Of a stretch of DNA of 64,000 nucleotides, positions 26,227 to 33,834 are shown piece after piece. The position numbers and the translations under genes were made by a program. The notes beneath the pieces were generated by a model that saw only the letters and a list, made by a program, of their open reading frames with translations, ran no database searches and was not told where the DNA came from. Source of the DNA: Agrobacterium tumefaciens (lineage in GTDB: Bacteria; Pseudomonadota; Alphaproteobacteria; Rhizobiales; Rhizobiaceae); the NCBI RefSeq assembly GCF_005221385.1, contig NZ_CP039903.1, positions 2,857,001 through 2,921,000 on the forward strand. The letters are read 5' to 3'. The stretch's first letter is position 1. Each line of letters starts with the position of its first letter.

Positions 26227-26256
26227 TTTTTTTATTGCGCGAGGCCGTTTTTAATC

Positions 26257-26283
26257 TTGACTCGGCCGTTCATGAAATATTAT
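26257..26283 (+). promoter_or_regulatory. Candidate sigma-70 promoter upstream of the GltB-like gene
   Basis: TTGACT, 15 bases, TATTAT. The spacing is short but both hexamers score well. It implies a leader of about 275 bases before the GltB-like start at 26567. That leader holds the inverted repeat and short ORF listed below. Confidence 0.4.
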
Positions 26284-26347: not shown

Positions 26348-26446
26348 ATGCGAACGACGACGATCATTATTTGCGAAAAAGCGGCCATTGCCGCCACGCC
26401 GTTTGCCGGCCGCAAAACGACCGTTCGCGCCATTAAACGCCGATAA
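26348..26446 (+). CDS. Possible 32-residue leader peptide
   Basis: A short ORF (ATG 26348, TAA 26444-26446) starts 4 bases after AGGGAA. It encodes a basic peptide beginning MRTTTIIICEK and ending RAIKRR. It sits in the leader of the GltB-like gene, in the 408-base gap 26159-26566. GC-rich arms (CTGCGG/CCGCAG near 26477-26494) follow it, which could allow attenuation. There is no known homologue in my memory, and coding potential of so short a frame is weak evidence. Confidence 0.25.
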   Translation: MRTTTIIICEKAAIAATPFAGRKTTVRAIKRR

Positions 26447-26566
26447 GCAGAAAAAGAGGAGCAGCCAGGTCGCCTGCGGCTCCGCCCGCAGAGTGCCGGC
26501 TGACGCGCCGGGTTTCGGGAAAAAGAGGGTGATGCCGCGCGAAATGCGCAACGAGAGGAGAGTGCC

Positions 26567-29500
26567 TTGAGCGTGACGGAGCAAAAATTCGGCCTTTACG
26601 ATGCGGCTTTTGAAAAAAGCAGCTGTGGCGTCGGTTTCATCACCCGCAAGGACGGCGTGCAGACGCATGATGTGCTGAAGCGCGGTCATGAGGCGCTCTG
26701 TGCCGTGCCGCATCGCGGCGGCATGTCGGCGGAAGGCGTTGGCGATGGTGCGGGCGTGTCGCTGGACCTGTCGCTCTCCTTTTTTCGTGAGCTGACGGGA
26801 CAAGGTGCCCTCAAGGCCGGCCGGTTCGGCGTCGGCAATTTCTTTCTGCCGCAGAACCCGGCTTTCCACGGTGAGGCCGTCGGTATTATCGGCAGCGCCC
26901 TGAAAGAGCAGGGCTTTTCGGTCCTGCTGGTCCGCGATGTGCCGGTCAATGACGCGGCCATCCGTCCCGCCGCAATCCCCTACCAGTTACCGATCCGCCA
27001 ATGGGTCTTTTCGGCACCAGTGGAATGCGCAACCCTTGCCGAGTTCGATTGGCGCATCCACAAGGCGCTGCTTGCCATCGAAGCGCTCGCTTACACCGTG
27101 CCGGAGCTTGCCGGTTTTTACCCTCTGTCGCTCAGCGCGCGCACGCAGGTGCTCAAGGGCCGTCTGAACTCCCAGGAGGTTATGCCCTATTTCTGCGATC
27201 TGACCGACCCGCGCCATGAAGTGCATACGATGTATTTCCACACGCGGTTCTCTACCAATACCGATCCGCACCCCTCCATGGCGCAGCCCTTCCGCCTGAT
27301 GGCGCATAATGGTGAGCTGAACACCGACAAGAAGAACCGGCTGTCAGAAGCGGCGGTGGCGCTGGCGAAGAATGCCAGCATTATCCGGCCGAAGGGCCAG
27401 TCGGACAGCTGCCGTCTGGACCAGACATTGCAGGCGCGGGTGATGGAGGATGGTCTCGACCTCGTCACCGCCGTGGTCTCGATGATGCCGCCGGCCTGGG
27501 AAAACGACGACACCCTGTCGCCGGGTGTGAAGGCGATGCTGGAATATTTCTCGCTCTATGAAGAGAAAAACGACGGCCCCGCCGCGCTGATCTTCGGCGA
27601 CGGCACTATCATTGGTGCACGTCTCGATCGCCTTGGCCTGCGCCCGCTGCGCACCGTCGAGACGGAAGACTATCTCTGTGTCATGTCTGAGGCAGGTCAG
27701 ATCGCCTTTCCGGCGGAAAGCGTCATCCGCCGCGGCCGCATTGAGGCGGGCGGCATGCTCTATTACGATCATGCTGAGCGTCGTGCCTTTTCCACGGTCG
27801 AGGCGCTGGAGCTTCTGGCCTCGCAGCGGGACTATTCGTCGCTGCTATCTGAAGCGCGAGTGATGCTTGGTGATCTGCCGGAAGTGCCCGCCGACAAGCA
27901 AGGCTCACCGTTGCGCTATAATGGCGATCTGGAACGGCACCAGCGTTATGTCGCCTATTCGCACAATCAGGAAAGCTTCAAGTTCCTGATGGACCCGATG
28001 CTGGCCTCCGGTGCGGAAAAGATTTCAGCGATGGGGTACGGCAATGCCATCAACGCATTGTCCGATCAGGAAGGTGGGGTTGCGAAGTATTTCTCGCAAC
28101 GTTTCGCGCAGGTCACCAACCCACCGCTCGACAGTATCCGTGAGGCCGATGGTATGACGCTACGCGTGGCGTTGGGCGCAAAGCCGAATAGCGGCGCGGC
28201 CAAGGCCCGCCAGATCGTCGTGCGGTCGCCGATCCTCACCCACCTCGACATGCTGCGCATTCGCGAGCAGCCCGAGACACCCGTTCGTCGTTTCGAGATG
28301 CTCTATACGCCGATCTTTGATGCGGCTGATGCCAATGAGGCAGCCCTTCGGCAAGCGATCGATGGCCTCTGCGACGAGGTTGCGGCTTTCGCAGCCGAGC
28401 AGGGCGGGATTGCCGTCATCACCGACCGGCATGTCTCGGCAGGCCGCGCGGCCTTGCCGATGATCATGGTCGTTTCCGCCATCAATCAGCGGCTGATCGA
28501 GGAAGGTCTGCGGCTACGTGTTTCCCTGATCGTCGAGAGCGGCCAGTTTTCCTCCTCCCATCATATCGCAGCCGGCCTCGGTTTCGGTGCTTCGGCGGTC
28601 TATCCGCTCGGCGTACAGTTCCGTGCGGAAGAGAAATTCGGCGCCGAGGCCGACAAGGCGTTCAAGCGCTTCGCCAAGGCGGCGGAAAAGTCGTTGATGA
28701 AGACCATGGGCAAAGTCGGCCTGTGCACGGCGGAAAGTTATATCGGCGGTGAGTTCTTCGAGCCGAATTTCCTCGACACCAACGATCCCGTCCTGAAGCG
28801 TTATTTCCCCAATGTGAAGACCCCGGTTGGTGGCGTCACCTTCGCCGTCATCGCGCAGGCTGTTGCGGACTGGCACCGCAAGGCGCTTTCGGTGAAGGGG
28901 GAGAACGACATTCCGCTGCTCGGTCTTTTCAAGGAACGCGCTGAAGGTGCCGGCCATTCTTATGGCACGACGGCAGTTCGCGGCTTCGTGGACATGACGG
29001 AGGAAAAGATCGGTTTCGACAAGGGAACCGAAAACGAGGAGGCTCTGCGCCTTCTGCCGCTTAACCGGCTGGAGGACGCTTTTGGTCTTAATGATGCGGC
29101 CTATTATCACAACAGCTTCGACCGGCTGACCCCGGAGGCCATCGACGCATTCGAGGTGACGCCCGGTTATCGTTCCTTTGCCCGTATGATGGCAGAAGAA
29201 AGGGCGCGCCGCCCGGCCGCCCTGCGCGATGTTCTGGAATTGCCGGCCGATGTGACCTTTGCCGGTTCGGCCGAAGAATTCCGCCGGGAAATGGGGCGGT
29301 TTTCCCGGCAGGGCAATAACAGCTTCATGGTGCGCGGATTGCGCTGCGAAGAGGCAGGAGACAGCGCGTTCCGGCTACAGCTGATCGGCCCACATGGTCA
29401 TGAACTTGCCCGCCTCGCGGCACTCGGCCAGTCGCTGCTCGACCGTTTCGGTGACGATATCGCCGGCCATTGGCTGGAAGGTGGTGCGCTCATGGTGCAG

Positions 29501-32071
29501 GCGAAGGGAGAGGCATCCACTTATCTCTCACTTATCCGCACCGCACCGGATAGTATTCCGCTTGAGACCGTGCAAAAGGCAAGCGAGATCACCAAGACCC
29601 TCGCATCGGGTGCCATGAGCCATGGCGCGCTGGTTGCGGCCGCCCATGAGGCGGTTGCCCACGGCACCAACATGGTTGGTGGCATGTCCAATTCCGGCGA
29701 AGGCGGTGAGCATATCTCCCGTTACGGCACCATCCGTGCCTCGCGCATCAAGCAGTTCGCCTCCGGCCGCTTCGGTGTCTGGGCCGGTTATCTTGCCGAT
29801 CCAATGCTGGAAGAGATCGAGATCAAGATCGGCCAGGGCGCAAAGCCGGGCGAGGGCGGGCAGTTGCCGTCTCCCAAGGTGACGGTGGAAATCGCGGCGG
29901 CACGCGGCGGCACGCCAGGCGTCGAACTCGTCTCGCCACCGCCGCATCACGATACCTATTCGATCGAAGATCTGGCCCAGCTCATTCACGACGCCAAGGC
30001 GGCGCGGGTGCGCGTCATCGTCAAGCTCGTGTCGTCGGAAGGCATAGGCACGATTGCAGTCGGCGTTGCCAAGGCTGGTGCCGACGTGATCAACGTTGCA
30101 GGCAATACCGGCGGCACTGGTGCGGCGGCCGTCACCAGCCTCAAATATACCGGCCGCGCGGCGGAAATCGGCATTGCCGAGGTGCATCAGGCACTCTGCG
30201 CCACCGGCCTTCGTGCCAAGGTGCTGTTGCGTTGTTCCGGCGCGCACCAGACGGCGAGCGACGTGGTGAAATCGGCGTTACTCGGCGGTGATAGTTTCGA
30301 ATTCGGCACAACGGCGCTGATGATGCTGAAATGTGTGATGGCGAAGAACTGCAACATCAAGTGCCCGGCCGGTCTCACCACCAATCAGGAAGCCTTCAAC
30401 GGCGATCCGCGGGCGCTGGCGCAATATCTCATGAACATCGCCCATGAAACGCGCGAGATTCTGGCCGGGCTTGGCATTGCCTCGCTGCGGGAAGCCCGTG
30501 GTCGTTCTGACCTTCTTCACCTCCTCGATCATCCGGCGAGCGTCGGCCAGCTTGACCTCCGGGCAATGCTTGCCGTGGTCGAAGAGGTGAAGATCGACAG
30601 CCCGGTCTATATGGAAAAGGACTTCGCACTCGACGATGCCTTCATCGATCTCGTGCGTTCGGCGTTGGTCGACAGCAAGCGAGACAATATCGAACTTGGC
30701 GGCAATCGTTTCCTCAACAATTGCAACAAGAGCGTCGGCGGCCAGCTCGCCGTCGATATCGAACGCATGCTGAACCACGAACTTTCCGATGAGCAGCTGG
30801 ACGCGCTTCCGGCTGTCAAGCGGGATGGCCGTGGCCGCCGTTTTCTGGAAGCAGGTTCGGTGCGCATCGATACGTCAGGTTCCGCCGGTCAGTCCTTCGG
30901 CGCTTTCTGCAACGACGGCATGGTCATGGTGCATACCGGCACCTGCAATGACGGTGTCGGCAAAAGCGCTTGTGGCGGCACCATCGTCGTGCGCTCGCCC
31001 GGCGGCGGTTCGCAAGAGGCGGGTGGTAATGTGCTGGTCGGTAATTTCGCGCTGTTCGGCGCAACCGGCGGCCGCACCTTCGTGGAAGGGCAGGCGGGCG
31101 ACCGTTTCGCAGTGCGTAATTCCGGCGCCACCGCCGTGGTCGAAGGCGTCGGCGATTTTGCCTGCGAATATATGACCAACGGCGCGGTTCTCAACCTCGG
31201 CAGTTTCGGCAAGGGTTTTGGTAACGGCATGAGCGGTGGCTTCGTCTATCAATATGATCCCTATGGCGATCTGCCGAAGAAGGTCAGCCATGATTCCATC
31301 CTGCTCGGCTCGATCACCGGTGAGGATGAACAGGCAGCGATCCACAATCAGGCAGTCCACCAGCTTCTGAGCCTGCATGTCGCAGAGACCGGCTCGGCCA
31401 AGGCGGCATGGCTTCTGGAAAACTGGGAAAGCGAACAGCATAATTTCGTCTACGGTATGCCGCGCGCCCTGCTGCTTTATCAGGACAGCGACGAAATCCT
31501 CAAAGCAAAGCCCCGCAAGGAATTGCTGGAGGAACTGGCCTCGGCACTTGCCGCCCATCAGCTGCGCAAGTTCAAGCTCGCCTATCGCGACCGCAAGGCT
31601 GTCTTGAACGGAACAGTGCCGGGTTATGGCGAGACGGATACAGAAGACATGTATGCGCTGCTTAATAACTACACCGTGTTGAGCATGGCGCAGGCCATCG
31701 CCCTGCAACGGTTGCCGATGGCATCCGGCCCTTCTGATCCCGCCATCGAAAAGGCTGTGCGCAATCTCATCCTCACGGAAGATTACGCGCTGATGCAGCG
31801 GCTGCTGAAATATGCCCGCGAAGCGCTTTTCGACCATAGCGACGAACAGCTTGCGGTGATGATCGCGGCCAAGCGGCTCGATGATTACAAGCAGGCGCTG
31901 GCACGCCGGAACATATGGTCGGTGGACAGCCCAGGCACCTATGGCTGGATCATTCAGCAGAACAGGAAAAACATCGAGAAGATCGGCCGCCTGCCGGGCT
32001 TCGAGGAGCTTTTCGCCGCTCGAGCCATTCCAGACCTTGCCACCGCATCCAGCCAGAACAGGGCAGCATGA
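26567..32071 (+). CDS. Glutamate synthase large-subunit-like protein, extended (1834 aa)
   Basis: All alpha-subunit domains of glutamate synthase are recognisable. A class II glutaminase domain follows a 19-residue propeptide, with Cys20 in KSSCGVGF as the presumed N-terminal nucleophile and HNGELNTDKKNR downstream. The FMN/synthase domain lies at about 1020-1400, and the GxGxG beta-helix at about 1455-1560. The cluster motif is C1256-x5-C1262-x3-C1266 (CVMAKNCNIKC), one residue shorter than the C-x5-C-x4-C I know for the 3Fe-4S site. At 1834 residues it exceeds normal GltB (about 1500), with roughly 190 extra residues after about 1640. The start is TTG 26567, seven bases after GAGAGGAG. No gltD is adjacent; a diflavin reductase gene overlaps the stop. 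It could be a true NADPH glutamate synthase with an unusual electron donor, or a different amidotransferase. Confidence 0.85.
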   Translation: MSVTEQKFGLYDAAFEKSSCGVGFITRKDGVQTHDVLKRGHEALCAVPHRGGMSAEGVGDGAGVSLDLSLSFFRELTGQGALKAGRFGVGNFFLPQNPAFHGEAVGIIGSALKEQGFSVLLVRDVPVNDAAIRPAAIPYQLPIRQWVFSAPVECATLAEFDWRIHKALLAIEALAYTVPELAGFYPLSLSARTQVLKGRLNSQEVMPYFCDLTDPRHEVHTMYFHTRFSTNTDPHPSMAQPFRLMAHNGELNTDKKNRLSEAAVALAKNASIIRPKGQSDSCRLDQTLQARVMEDGLDLVTAVVSMMPPAWENDDTLSPGVKAMLEYFSLYEEKNDGPAALIFGDGTIIGARLDRLGLRPLRTVETEDYLCVMSEAGQIAFPAESVIRRGRIEAGGMLYYDHAERRAFSTVEALELLASQRDYSSLLSEARVMLGDLPEVPADKQGSPLRYNGDLERHQRYVAYSHNQESFKFLMDPMLASGAEKISAMGYGNAINALSDQEGGVAKYFSQRFAQVTNPPLDSIREADGMTLRVALGAKPNSGAAKARQIVVRSPILTHLDMLRIREQPETPVRRFEMLYTPIFDAADANEAALRQAIDGLCDEVAAFAAEQGGIAVITDRHVSAGRAALPMIMVVSAINQRLIEEGLRLRVSLIVESGQFSSSHHIAAGLGFGASAVYPLGVQFRAEEKFGAEADKAFKRFAKAAEKSLMKTMGKVGLCTAESYIGGEFFEPNFLDTNDPVLKRYFPNVKTPVGGVTFAVIAQAVADWHRKALSVKGENDIPLLGLFKERAEGAGHSYGTTAVRGFVDMTEEKIGFDKGTENEEALRLLPLNRLEDAFGLNDAAYYHNSFDRLTPEAIDAFEVTPGYRSFARMMAEERARRPAALRDVLELPADVTFAGSAEEFRREMGRFSRQGNNSFMVRGLRCEEAGDSAFRLQLIGPHGHELARLAALGQSLLDRFGDDIAGHWLEGGALMVQAKGEASTYLSLIRTAPDSIPLETVQKASEITKTLASGAMSHGALVAAAHEAVAHGTNMVGGMSNSGEGGEHISRYGTIRASRIKQFASGRFGVWAGYLADPMLEEIEIKIGQGAKPGEGGQLPSPKVTVEIAAARGGTPGVELVSPPPHHDTYSIEDLAQLIHDAKAARVRVIVKLVSSEGIGTIAVGVAKAGADVINVAGNTGGTGAAAVTSLKYTGRAAEIGIAEVHQALCATGLRAKVLLRCSGAHQTASDVVKSALLGGDSFEFGTTALMMLKCVMAKNCNIKCPAGLTTNQEAFNGDPRALAQYLMNIAHETREILAGLGIASLREARGRSDLLHLLDHPASVGQLDLRAMLAVVEEVKIDSPVYMEKDFALDDAFIDLVRSALVDSKRDNIELGGNRFLNNCNKSVGGQLAVDIERMLNHELSDEQLDALPAVKRDGRGRRFLEAGSVRIDTSGSAGQSFGAFCNDGMVMVHTGTCNDGVGKSACGGTIVVRSPGGGSQEAGGNVLVGNFALFGATGGRTFVEGQAGDRFAVRNSGATAVVEGVGDFACEYMTNGAVLNLGSFGKGFGNGMSGGFVYQYDPYGDLPKKVSHDSILLGSITGEDEQAAIHNQAVHQLLSLHVAETGSAKAAWLLENWESEQHNFVYGMPRALLLYQDSDEILKAKPRKELLEELASALAAHQLRKFKLAYRDRKAVLNGTVPGYGETDTEDMYALLNNYTVLSMAQAIALQRLPMASGPSDPAIEKAVRNLILTEDYALMQRLLKYAREALFDHSDEQLAVMIAAKRLDDYKQALARRNIWSVDSPGTYGWIIQQNRKNIEKIGRLPGFEELFAARAIPDLATASSQNRAA

Positions 32072-33834
32072 TGAAGATACCTTACATTCCACAGGATGCG
32101 CCGTTTAACGGCGACCAGCGCGCCTGGCTCGCCGGTTTTCTGGCCGGGCTCCACTCCCGCACCGCCATCAGCCTCGAGACATCGGTGGCCTCTGCTGCCC
32201 CCAAGGCGACGGCCAGCCTGCTGAACATCCTTGTCGGCACCCAGACTGGCAACGCCGAGGCCTTGGCGATGGATATCGCTGCCGCTGCCCGCACCCAGGG
32301 CATGCAGCCCGTGGTAACGGCGCTGGACGACGTTTCCATGGACAGTCTCGGCTCCATGAAGCGGGTCATCGTGGTCACCTCGACCTATGGCGAAGGCGAG
32401 ATGCCTGACAATGCCCAGCTGTTCTGGGAAGCGCTTGCCGCCGATGGTGCACCGCGATTGGATGAGATGAATTTCGCTGTTCTTGCACTCGGCGATACCG
32501 GTTATGACGGCTTCTGCCAGGCGGGCAAGCTTATCGATACGCGCTTTGAACAGCTCGGCGGCAAGCGCATGAAGACGCGTATTGACTGCGATATCGATTT
32601 TGAGGATGCCGCCGCCGCCTGGATCGGCGAGACGCTGCCGCTTGCCCTCGCCATCGATGGCGGCAATGCAGCCGCGGTGACGCCTGTGGTCGCCGAGCCG
32701 CCGGCACGGGTAAAACAGGGCTGGGGTCGCAAGAACCCCTATTCGTCACGGGTGAGCGTCAATCGCCTCCTTTCCGGGCCGGCCTCGTCCAAGGAGATTC
32801 GTCATTACGAATTCGATCTTGGCGCGAGCGGCCTCGACTATGAGGCCGGTGATGCACTTGGTGTGGTCCCCCTCAACGATCCGAAACTGGTCGGTGCTCT
32901 GCTCGATTGCTTTGGAGCGAGTGCGGATGGCGAGGTCGCCGGGCTCGACCGGCCGGTTGGCGATGCGCTTCTGAACATGTTCGAGATATCGACGCCTTCG
33001 CGTGAGTTGGTGGCCGAAATCGGCAAGCGCGCAGGATATGACGAGTTGAGCCATATCCTTGCCAACGGAGACAGGGAGCAGCTTGCCGCCTTTCTCTGGA
33101 GCAAGGATATTCTCGATCTGCTCAATCTCGGCGGAAAGCCCATATTCGATCTTGCCGAATTCGTGACCTTCCTGAAGCCGCTGCAGCATCGCGCTTACTC
33201 CATCTCCTCCAGCCCACTGGTTGCGGAAAACAGCGTGCATCTGACGATCGCCAGCGTGCGTTATCGTGCCGAAGGCCGCGAGCGTGGCGGCGTATGCTCC
33301 ACCTATCTGGCGGATCGGGTGGAAGCCAACCAGAATGCCGGGATTTTCGTTTCGCCCAACAAGGCATTCCGCGTGCCGCAGAATAATGACGCGCCTGTCA
33401 TCATGGTCGGACCGGGCACGGGCATCGCGCCTTTCCGGGCCTTTCTGCAGGAACGGCAGGCAAGGGGTGCAAACGGCAGGAACTGGCTGTTCTTTGGCGA
33501 CCAGCACCGTCAGACGGATTTCATCTACGAAAACGAGCTTGGCAAGATGAGCCGTGATGGCGTGCTGACGCGCCTCGACCTTGCCTTCTCGCGGGATCAG
33601 GCGGAAAAGATCTATGTCCAGACCCGCATGCGCCAGAACGGCAAGGCGCTTTATCAATGGCTCGAAGAAGGCGGATATTTCTACGTCTGCGGTGATGCGA
33701 CCCGCATGGCGAAGGATGTAGATGACGCCCTGCACCAGATCGTCGCCGACGAAGCCGGCATTTCTGCTGAAGCGGCAAGCGATTATGTGAACCGGTTGAA
33801 GCGCGAAAAGCGTTATCTGCGTGACGTCTATTAG
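32068..33834 (+). CDS. CysJ-like diflavin reductase (flavodoxin-FAD/NADPH domains)
   Basis: This 588-residue protein has an N-terminal segment (PFNGDQRAWLAGFLAGL) typical of 'sulfite reductase subunit alpha' proteins. A flavodoxin domain (about 60-200) has the FMN loop VGTQTGNAEA and TSTYGEGEMPDNAQ. The FAD domain has RAYSISSSPL. The NADPH domain has VGPGTGIAPFRAFLQER and ends near the aromatic C-terminus YLRDVY. Such proteins pass electrons from NADPH through FAD and FMN to a partner. ATG 32068 overlaps the stop of the GltB-like gene (ATGA), implying tight co-expression. There is no cysI here, so the GltB-like protein is the obvious candidate partner; that is inference. Confidence 0.88.
   Translation: MMKIPYIPQDAPFNGDQRAWLAGFLAGLHSRTAISLETSVASAAPKATASLLNILVGTQTGNAEALAMDIAAAARTQGMQPVVTALDDVSMDSLGSMKRVIVVTSTYGEGEMPDNAQLFWEALAADGAPRLDEMNFAVLALGDTGYDGFCQAGKLIDTRFEQLGGKRMKTRIDCDIDFEDAAAAWIGETLPLALAIDGGNAAAVTPVVAEPPARVKQGWGRKNPYSSRVSVNRLLSGPASSKEIRHYEFDLGASGLDYEAGDALGVVPLNDPKLVGALLDCFGASADGEVAGLDRPVGDALLNMFEISTPSRELVAEIGKRAGYDELSHILANGDREQLAAFLWSKDILDLLNLGGKPIFDLAEFVTFLKPLQHRAYSISSSPLVAENSVHLTIASVRYRAEGRERGGVCSTYLADRVEANQNAGIFVSPNKAFRVPQNNDAPVIMVGPGTGIAPFRAFLQERQARGANGRNWLFFGDQHRQTDFIYENELGKMSRDGVLTRLDLAFSRDQAEKIYVQTRMRQNGKALYQWLEEGGYFYVCGDATRMAKDVDDALHQIVADEAGISAEAASDYVNRLKREKRYLRDVY

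Follow-up and report, generated by a model that had tools for sequence, protein, structure and literature searches.

The gene pair and its probable function

How does a glutamate synthase subunit of the GltB type receive its electrons if the gene following it encodes not GltD but a CysJ-like reductase? This question is raised by two overlapping genes at 26567..33834 of the window, i.e. the whole 64,000-nucleotide stretch of Agrobacterium tumefaciens DNA analysed here (contig NZ_CP039903.1, positions 2,857,001 to 2,921,000), whose features described below all lie on the forward (+) strand. Open reading frames and domain calls define the first gene (26567..32071) as that of a long-form GltB, a glutamate synthase alpha-like subunit of 1834 amino acids (aa). 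The second one (32068..33834) encodes a CysJ-like NADPH-FAD-FMN diflavin reductase of 588 aa (NADPH, reduced nicotinamide adenine dinucleotide phosphate; FAD, flavin adenine dinucleotide; FMN, flavin mononucleotide), the presumed electron donor. Sequence comparison suggests that the two genes probably encode a two-component NADPH-dependent glutamate synthase with an iron-free diflavin reductase, which would often serve as an iron-starvation isozyme.

The long gltB has a TTG start preceded by GAGAGGAGAG. As an earlier note on this DNA had stated, its product carries all four GltB domains, found by Pfam as GATase_2 (PF00310, residues 20-425), Glu_syn_central (PF04898, 460-732), Glu_synthase (PF01645, 994-1304) and GXGXG (PF01493, 1423-1589). 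The protein narrowly misses the large-subunit model NF008730 of NCBIfam (score of 1037, below the cut-off of 1047). Its stop codon overlaps the diflavin gene in the ATGA at 32068-32071, as described in the same note, and the Pfam domains of the diflavin protein are flavodoxin, FAD_binding_1 and NAD_binding_1. The latter protein does not reach the CysJ equivalog TIGR01931 (612, cut-off 668.15) and passes the broader sulfite reductase alpha model PRK06214 (463.9, cut-off 432).

The presumed nucleophile of the glutaminase site is Cys20 (in CGVGF), whose codon was located by alignment at 26624..26626. Relative to canonical GltB, the alignment also reveals an internal insertion at approximately residues 774-994 (28886..29548), where 144 residues within 770-1000 stand opposite gaps in the canonical GltB of the same genome. 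The three-cysteine cluster motif C-x5-C-x3-C (CVMAKNCNIKC, formed by Cys1256, Cys1262 and Cys1266) was placed at 30332..30364 by motif search and alignment. The C-terminal extension (residues 1665-1834, 31559..32068), which is the mark of the family, continues for about 170 residues past the end of the genome's own canonical GltB; its presence was correctly recognized earlier, but its length was overestimated at about 190 residues. The predicted structure of the extension is all-helical and confident (mean predicted local distance difference test score, pLDDT, of 87.6), and comparison of this model with the PDB gave no clear fold match. As the extension is found only in the long form, it is a natural candidate for the docking part.

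Conservation of the two-gene module

The module and its conservation were observed by computation in one-per-species genomes, where the best 80 of 212 stretches encoding a relative were taken as loci. The diflavin gene lies directly 3' of the long gltB in all 80 loci, which belong to two phyla, and the diflavin proteins share 58-96% identity with that of the window (in L091 the protein is in two pieces). The extension was also found in nine genomes of a 150-genome draw from the same order, the window genome included, and the other eight all possess the tandem pair. Such an arrangement is not due to chance, because the same adjacency is seen in 88 of 88 loci examined (80 + 8); the co-occurrence of the two proteins raised in the earlier note is thus constant. 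Divergences of the two proteins correlate with r = 0.92 over 81 loci, a value which arises partly from common descent alone. The 80 pair loci contain no gltD match and no cysI-type match.

The extension, used as a query, matched 231 proteins, and the 120 listed ones include those of Rhizobiaceae, Rhodococcus, Mycobacteroides, Mycolicibacterium, Nocardia, Streptomyces and Methylobacillus. A search from the protein of genome G119 (matching Cohaesibacter sp. ES.047 by protein identity) found 74 proteins, 49 of them new, including those of Cohaesibacter, Pseudovibrio, Gemmobacter, Paracoccus, Hyphomicrobium and Azorhizobium. In three loci (L035, L075 and L091) the match to the long gltB is divided between two pieces or frames, which would fit a broken gene or a misassembly. 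All five Mycobacteroides-type loci have a second diflavin gene roughly 3 kb upstream of the pair; the protein, of 538 aa in L061 (163-1779, reverse strand), is up to 52% identical to the GltB-linked ones.

The diflavin protein might instead be the sulfite reductase flavoprotein of the genome and not serve the long GltB, which would then be fed by ferredoxin or flavodoxin. The resemblance to CysJ agrees with this explanation, as do the facts that the protein gives the only PF00667 match in the window genome (5.5 Mb, 4 contigs) and that a CysI-like gene is present elsewhere in it. Against it stand the adjacency in 88 of 88 loci and the absence of the hemoprotein gene, since a flavoprotein beside a sulfite reductase hemoprotein, which the earlier note had considered, was seen in none of the 80 loci. 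Furthermore, the CysI-like gene of the window genome adjoins a ferredoxin-NADP reductase-like gene, its other neighbour being CysG-like (both named by eye). In five genomes (G067, G084, G076, G165 and G160) another diflavin protein is encoded directly beside a PF01077 gene, so the diflavin of the pair is spare there; the best identity between the two kinds of diflavin is 41-45% in four of these genomes and 31% in the fifth. Altogether, the assignment of the protein to sulfite reductase appears very improbable. As a separate observation, the other diflavin gene of L131 (G076:C5:668000-673500) has a PF01077 gene on one side and, by eye, a nitrate-reductase-like gene on the other, and this arrangement suggests that the diflavin reductase family was seemingly recruited more than once.

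Catalytic motifs and the proposed electron path

Motifs were compared in 170 stored family proteins, the query included (164 of them longer than 1600 aa), and in 18 canonical GltBs. The C-x5-C-x3-C motif reported in the earlier note proved to be present in 170/170 long forms, in contrast to C-x5-C-x4-C in 18/18 canonical proteins (CIMMRKCHLNTC in the canonical GltB of the window genome). The longer spacing is the [3Fe-4S] ligand pattern of GltBD-type enzymes, to which the long GltB does not conform. The synthase-loop motifs IK..QGAKPGEGGQLP and GGTGA are found in all 170 long forms, and the glutaminase motifs RFSTNT, HNGE[LI]NT and G.SDS in all 164 of those above 1600 aa. CG[VI]GF near the N-terminus is present in 149 of these 164; among the remaining 15, the cysteine stands in CGVGL or CGVGV in six, and the N-terminus begins too late in nine. 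In 81/81 loci the three cluster cysteines and the presumed nucleophile of the long GltB are kept, together with the FMN, FAD and NADPH motifs of the diflavin protein. The diflavin proteins of these loci contain four scattered conserved cysteines and no set resembling a cluster site.

In the ordinary NADPH-dependent enzyme, as described in PMC8097209, electrons pass from NADPH to FAD and two [4Fe-4S] clusters on GltD and then to the [3Fe-4S] cluster and FMN on GltB, and both [4Fe-4S] clusters of GltD are required for assembly. For the pair we infer the following activity and electron path. The hydride of NADPH would be taken onto the FAD of the diflavin protein and split into single electrons by its flavodoxin FMN; in the long GltB, the electrons would then pass through the three-cysteine site to the synthase FMN, which would reduce the imine formed from 2-oxoglutarate and glutamine-derived ammonia. 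The diflavin protein would thereby substitute for GltD and its two [4Fe-4S] clusters. Such a replacement of GltD was proposed in the earlier note, and it is supported by the constant adjacency, the matched divergence, the kept motifs and the genomes which have the pair instead of gltBD.

The pair shares with GltBD the four GltB domains, the presumed cysteine nucleophile, the glutaminase and synthase loops, as well as a second subunit that is predicted to take electrons from NADPH. It differs from GltBD in having a CysJ-like diflavin protein in place of GltD, a cluster motif one residue shorter, the C-terminal extension of about 170 residues, the internal insertion and, often, iron-type promoters. 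In ferredoxin-dependent glutamate synthase (Fd-GltS) a GltB-like subunit works without GltD, and the long GltB matches the structures 1llw and 1ofd, which we take to be solved forms of this enzyme. In contrast to Fd-GltS, the long GltB carries the extension and the short motif and always has an NADPH diflavin protein encoded next door; judging from gene order, this constant neighbour speaks against a single-subunit ferredoxin-dependent type. The diflavin protein has the flavodoxin-FAD-NADPH layout of CysJ, and its best solved relatives are CysJ structures (6efv, 9c91 and 1ddg), but it remains below the equivalog cut-off, and its partner is GltB, not CysI.

Replacement of gltBD

The window genome also has a canonical gltB (1581 aa) with an adjoining gltD on another contig. 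The absence of gltD noted earlier is therefore true for the locus and does not hold for the genome, where both gltBD and the CysI-like gene occur separately from the pair; the gltD sits with its own canonical gltB, so the possibility that it partners the long GltB, foreseen in the earlier note, was not borne out in the data examined. No PF00208 dehydrogenase match was found in the window genome. Beside a glutamine-synthetase-like gene in L014 (G000:C2:877000-886000) there is a split set resembling glutamate synthase (names by eye), consisting of a 301-aa amidotransferase, a 228-aa GXGXG-like protein and a 502-aa FMN-synthase-like protein; presumably it is akin to GlxBCD/MgsABC.

The replacement pattern was observed by computation in the 150-genome sample of the order, where canonical GltB was scored as present at a best E-value of 1e-146 or better and was found in 133 genomes. 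It is missing from 7 of the 9 long-form genomes, a proportion inflated by kinship, versus 10 of the 141 others, five of which are less than 80% complete (Fisher p = 2e-6 for the 150 genomes and 2e-7 for the 131 good ones). The long-form genomes without canonical GltB are G051, G061, G067, G084, G088, G119 and G149. Within genus g24, canonical GltB alone is present in G021 and G103, the long GltB alone in G067, and neither form in G134 (78% complete); the same swap between canonical and long GltB is seen in families f14 and f44.

None of the seven long-only genomes has a GltD-class match beside a gltB. Fer4_20 matches are absent from G061, G067 and G088; those of G051, G084, G119 and G149 belong to score classes other than that of 84-97 bits, which is present in each of 18 long-form genomes having canonical GltB, and presumably do not represent GltD. 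As for PF00208, G119 has no match; G051, G067, G088 and G149 give weak matches only, for the most part in frames of some 1620-1640 aa; those of G061 are likewise weak, one of them with 42 bits in a 385-aa frame; and G084 gives a clear match. Smaller PF01645 proteins are present in some of the seven genomes. The pair seems to have displaced gltBD in some Hyphomicrobiales, where it is the only full-size glutamate synthase found. The replacement in 7/9 genomes along with the swap in one genus means that the pair is most likely a working glutamate synthase.

These data also bear on the idea that the long GltB is a related reductive glutamine amidotransferase which uses a different 2-oxo acid and is reduced by the diflavin protein. 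The altered FMN-site loop and cluster spacing, the internal insertion, the extension and the iron-gene neighbourhoods of some lineages are compatible with this idea, whereas the loss of canonical GltB in 7/9 long-form genomes, the swaps within a genus and two families and the retained catalytic-loop motifs disagree with it. We consider another substrate to be improbable and glutamate synthesis to be the preferred function.

Iron-type promoters and neighbouring genes

The box scan found a RirA-type operator CTTGACTCGGCCGTTCA at 26256..26272, upstream of the long gltB. Its TGA-N9-TCA (26258-26272) corresponds to the RirA operator as given in PMC8822346 and PMC6386902, and it overlaps a -35-like TTGACT. 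Promoters were scanned in 73 of the 80 loci (39 alphaproteobacterial and 34 actinobacterial), the four Methylobacillus loci and three loci without a gene start being excluded. With counts inflated by kinship, a RirA-type box was observed in 31/39 alphaproteobacterial promoters versus 177/2145 control stretches of the same loci (8%), and an IdeR/DtxR-type box (at least 13 of 19 positions of what we take to be the consensus) in 21/34 actinobacterial promoters versus 6/1855 controls (0.3%). One of the 31, L034, has its site away from the usual place; at the usual place in L034, as in most of the misses, TCC or TCT stands instead of TCA. Several of the RirA-type sites form longer dyads, CTTGA-N9-TCAAG.

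The window genome contains five copies of the strict form CTTGACT-N7-TCA. One copy precedes the long gltB, the second is flanked by an Rrf2 gene and a gene for a solute-binding protein, which resemble rirA and fbpA, the third adjoins another Rrf2-like gene, and two more have no recognized iron gene nearby. A strict RirA-like box was noticed in L126 (G000:C1 near 2972714) between genes for an Rrf2-like regulator and an FAD-dependent oxidoreductase-like protein (by eye). Among 25 long-form genomes the strict box is present in 10/18 with canonical GltB and in 0/7 without it (p = 0.02), or in 1/7 if a stray TGA-N9-TCA in L122 is counted.

Iron-related neighbours were likewise observed. A HemS/ChuX-like gene lies directly behind the pair in 18/80 loci: five of Mycobacteroides, five of Mycolicibacterium, three of Nocardia (L077 with a partial match), two of Rhodococcus, two of Roseibium and one of an unclassified actinobacterium. 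A HemS-like gene is also located behind the pair in G076, where an Rrf2 gene is divergent upstream. Pfam confirmed four HemS-like proteins, siderophore-interacting proteins (L030, L089) and TonB receptors (L068, L048) near the pair, as well as a flavodoxin gene behind it in R. koreensis; all four Methylobacillus loci contain FecR-, TonB-receptor- and MacA-like genes. A match to HemS, a siderophore-interacting protein or a TonB receptor (at least 100 bits) was obtained in the fetched flanks of 25/80 loci, a count that stands without a control rate. By eye, no iron genes were recognized next to the pair in the long-only genomes, apart from a BtuF/FecB-like gene in L116.

The extension was found in nine plasmid records, of which four were examined. 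On the conjugative-typed Ketogulonicigenium plasmid pKvSKV1 (L133) the pair is followed by a hypothetical gene, an AraC gene and annotated siderophore genes (receptor, binding-protein and siderophore-interacting); such carriage is a likely route of spread. The Tsukamurella plasmid has a HemS match (31 bits) behind the pair and an IdeR-like box (14 of 19) before it, the Neorhizobium plasmid has a RirA-type box and no iron neighbours, and the Shinella plasmid has neither.

The leader before the long gltB is about 300 nucleotides long in Agrobacterium. Sequence comparison detects in it a short open reading frame of 32 codons, similar among Agrobacterium loci (26348..26446), and a GGAGC...GCTCC inverted repeat kept in Agrobacterium and Rhizobium leaders (26458..26483). 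The whole leader folds no better than its shuffles (z 0.77), and no Rfam match was found in it.

Proposed iron sparing and the points against it

From boxes and neighbours we infer induction at low iron and an iron-sparing purpose. In genomes with gltBD the pair would often be a second isozyme, turned on at iron shortage by RirA in alphaproteobacteria and by an IdeR/DtxR-type regulator in actinobacteria, and would save iron. Dispensing with GltD would lower the iron demand by eight atoms per protomer, in keeping with an iron-starvation isozyme. Many bacteria appear to retain the pair as an additional enzyme for times of scarce iron, and a few seem to depend on it alone. The earlier note had mentioned neither the internal insertion nor the likely control by iron, nor that some genomes with the pair have gltBD and others lack it.

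It is possible, though rather unlikely, that a diflavin-driven glutamate synthase has iron boxes for another purpose, for example to provide an enzyme that withstands the oxidative loss of [4Fe-4S] clusters, or glutamate for making siderophores. PMC6386902 and PMC6748827 describe a role of RirA in resistance to oxidants and the loss of its own cluster in the presence of oxygen; siderophore transport genes do lie near the pair in some loci. On the other hand, the swapped subunit is the very holder of the two [4Fe-4S] clusters, as PMC8097209 describes it. No siderophore synthesis genes were recognized beside the pair, though no search was aimed at them. The flavodoxin gene following the pair in R. 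koreensis also points to iron saving, flavodoxin for ferredoxin being a familiar swap of this kind. The pair resembles such swaps in that a flavin protein takes the place of iron-sulfur carriers under iron-regulator boxes; it differs from them in that the exchange involves an entire subunit of a central nitrogen enzyme, along with a catalytic subunit matched to it.

Several observations weigh against a glutamate synthase for iron shortage. The seven long-only genomes fall in four families and represent fewer than seven events, and G122, from the genus of the long-only G051 and G088, has neither GltB form. The FMN-site loop reads SGAHQT in 151/170 long forms and in 0/18 canonical proteins, and the canonical-type DGG pattern is found in 0/170 long forms, yet also in only 9/18 canonical ones; this changed loop leaves room for another substrate. 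Boxes are absent from 8/39 alphaproteobacterial and 13/34 actinobacterial promoters and were not found in the promoter of the pKvSKV1 pair, kinship adds to the box counts, and the -35-like hexamer TTGACT occupies the same position as the left half of the RirA box. In the fetched flanks of 55/80 loci there is no match to HemS, a siderophore-interacting protein or a strong TonB receptor, and the neighbour counts have no control rate. No transcript data on iron depletion and no enzyme assays for the pair were found in the literature searched.

Biological significance

Glutamate synthase is one of the main points at which nitrogen enters metabolism. To our knowledge, the bacterial and plant enzymes use GltD-type subunits or ferredoxin, and a form driven by a CysJ-like diflavin protein would, if true, represent a third electron route to glutamate synthase. 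A bolder proposal, which we regard as doubtful, is that the pair forms a third class of glutamate synthase with a three-cysteine site devoid of [3Fe-4S] and a wholly iron-free route from NADPH to glutamate, to which nitrogen assimilation would be switched at iron exhaustion and which would have been adopted permanently in some lineages. The database names “glutamate synthase-related protein” and “sulfite reductase subunit alpha” mean that metabolic models may misread the pair. If unrelated iron regulators indeed control it in two phyla, nitrogen assimilation would be tied to iron economy via an isozyme swap.

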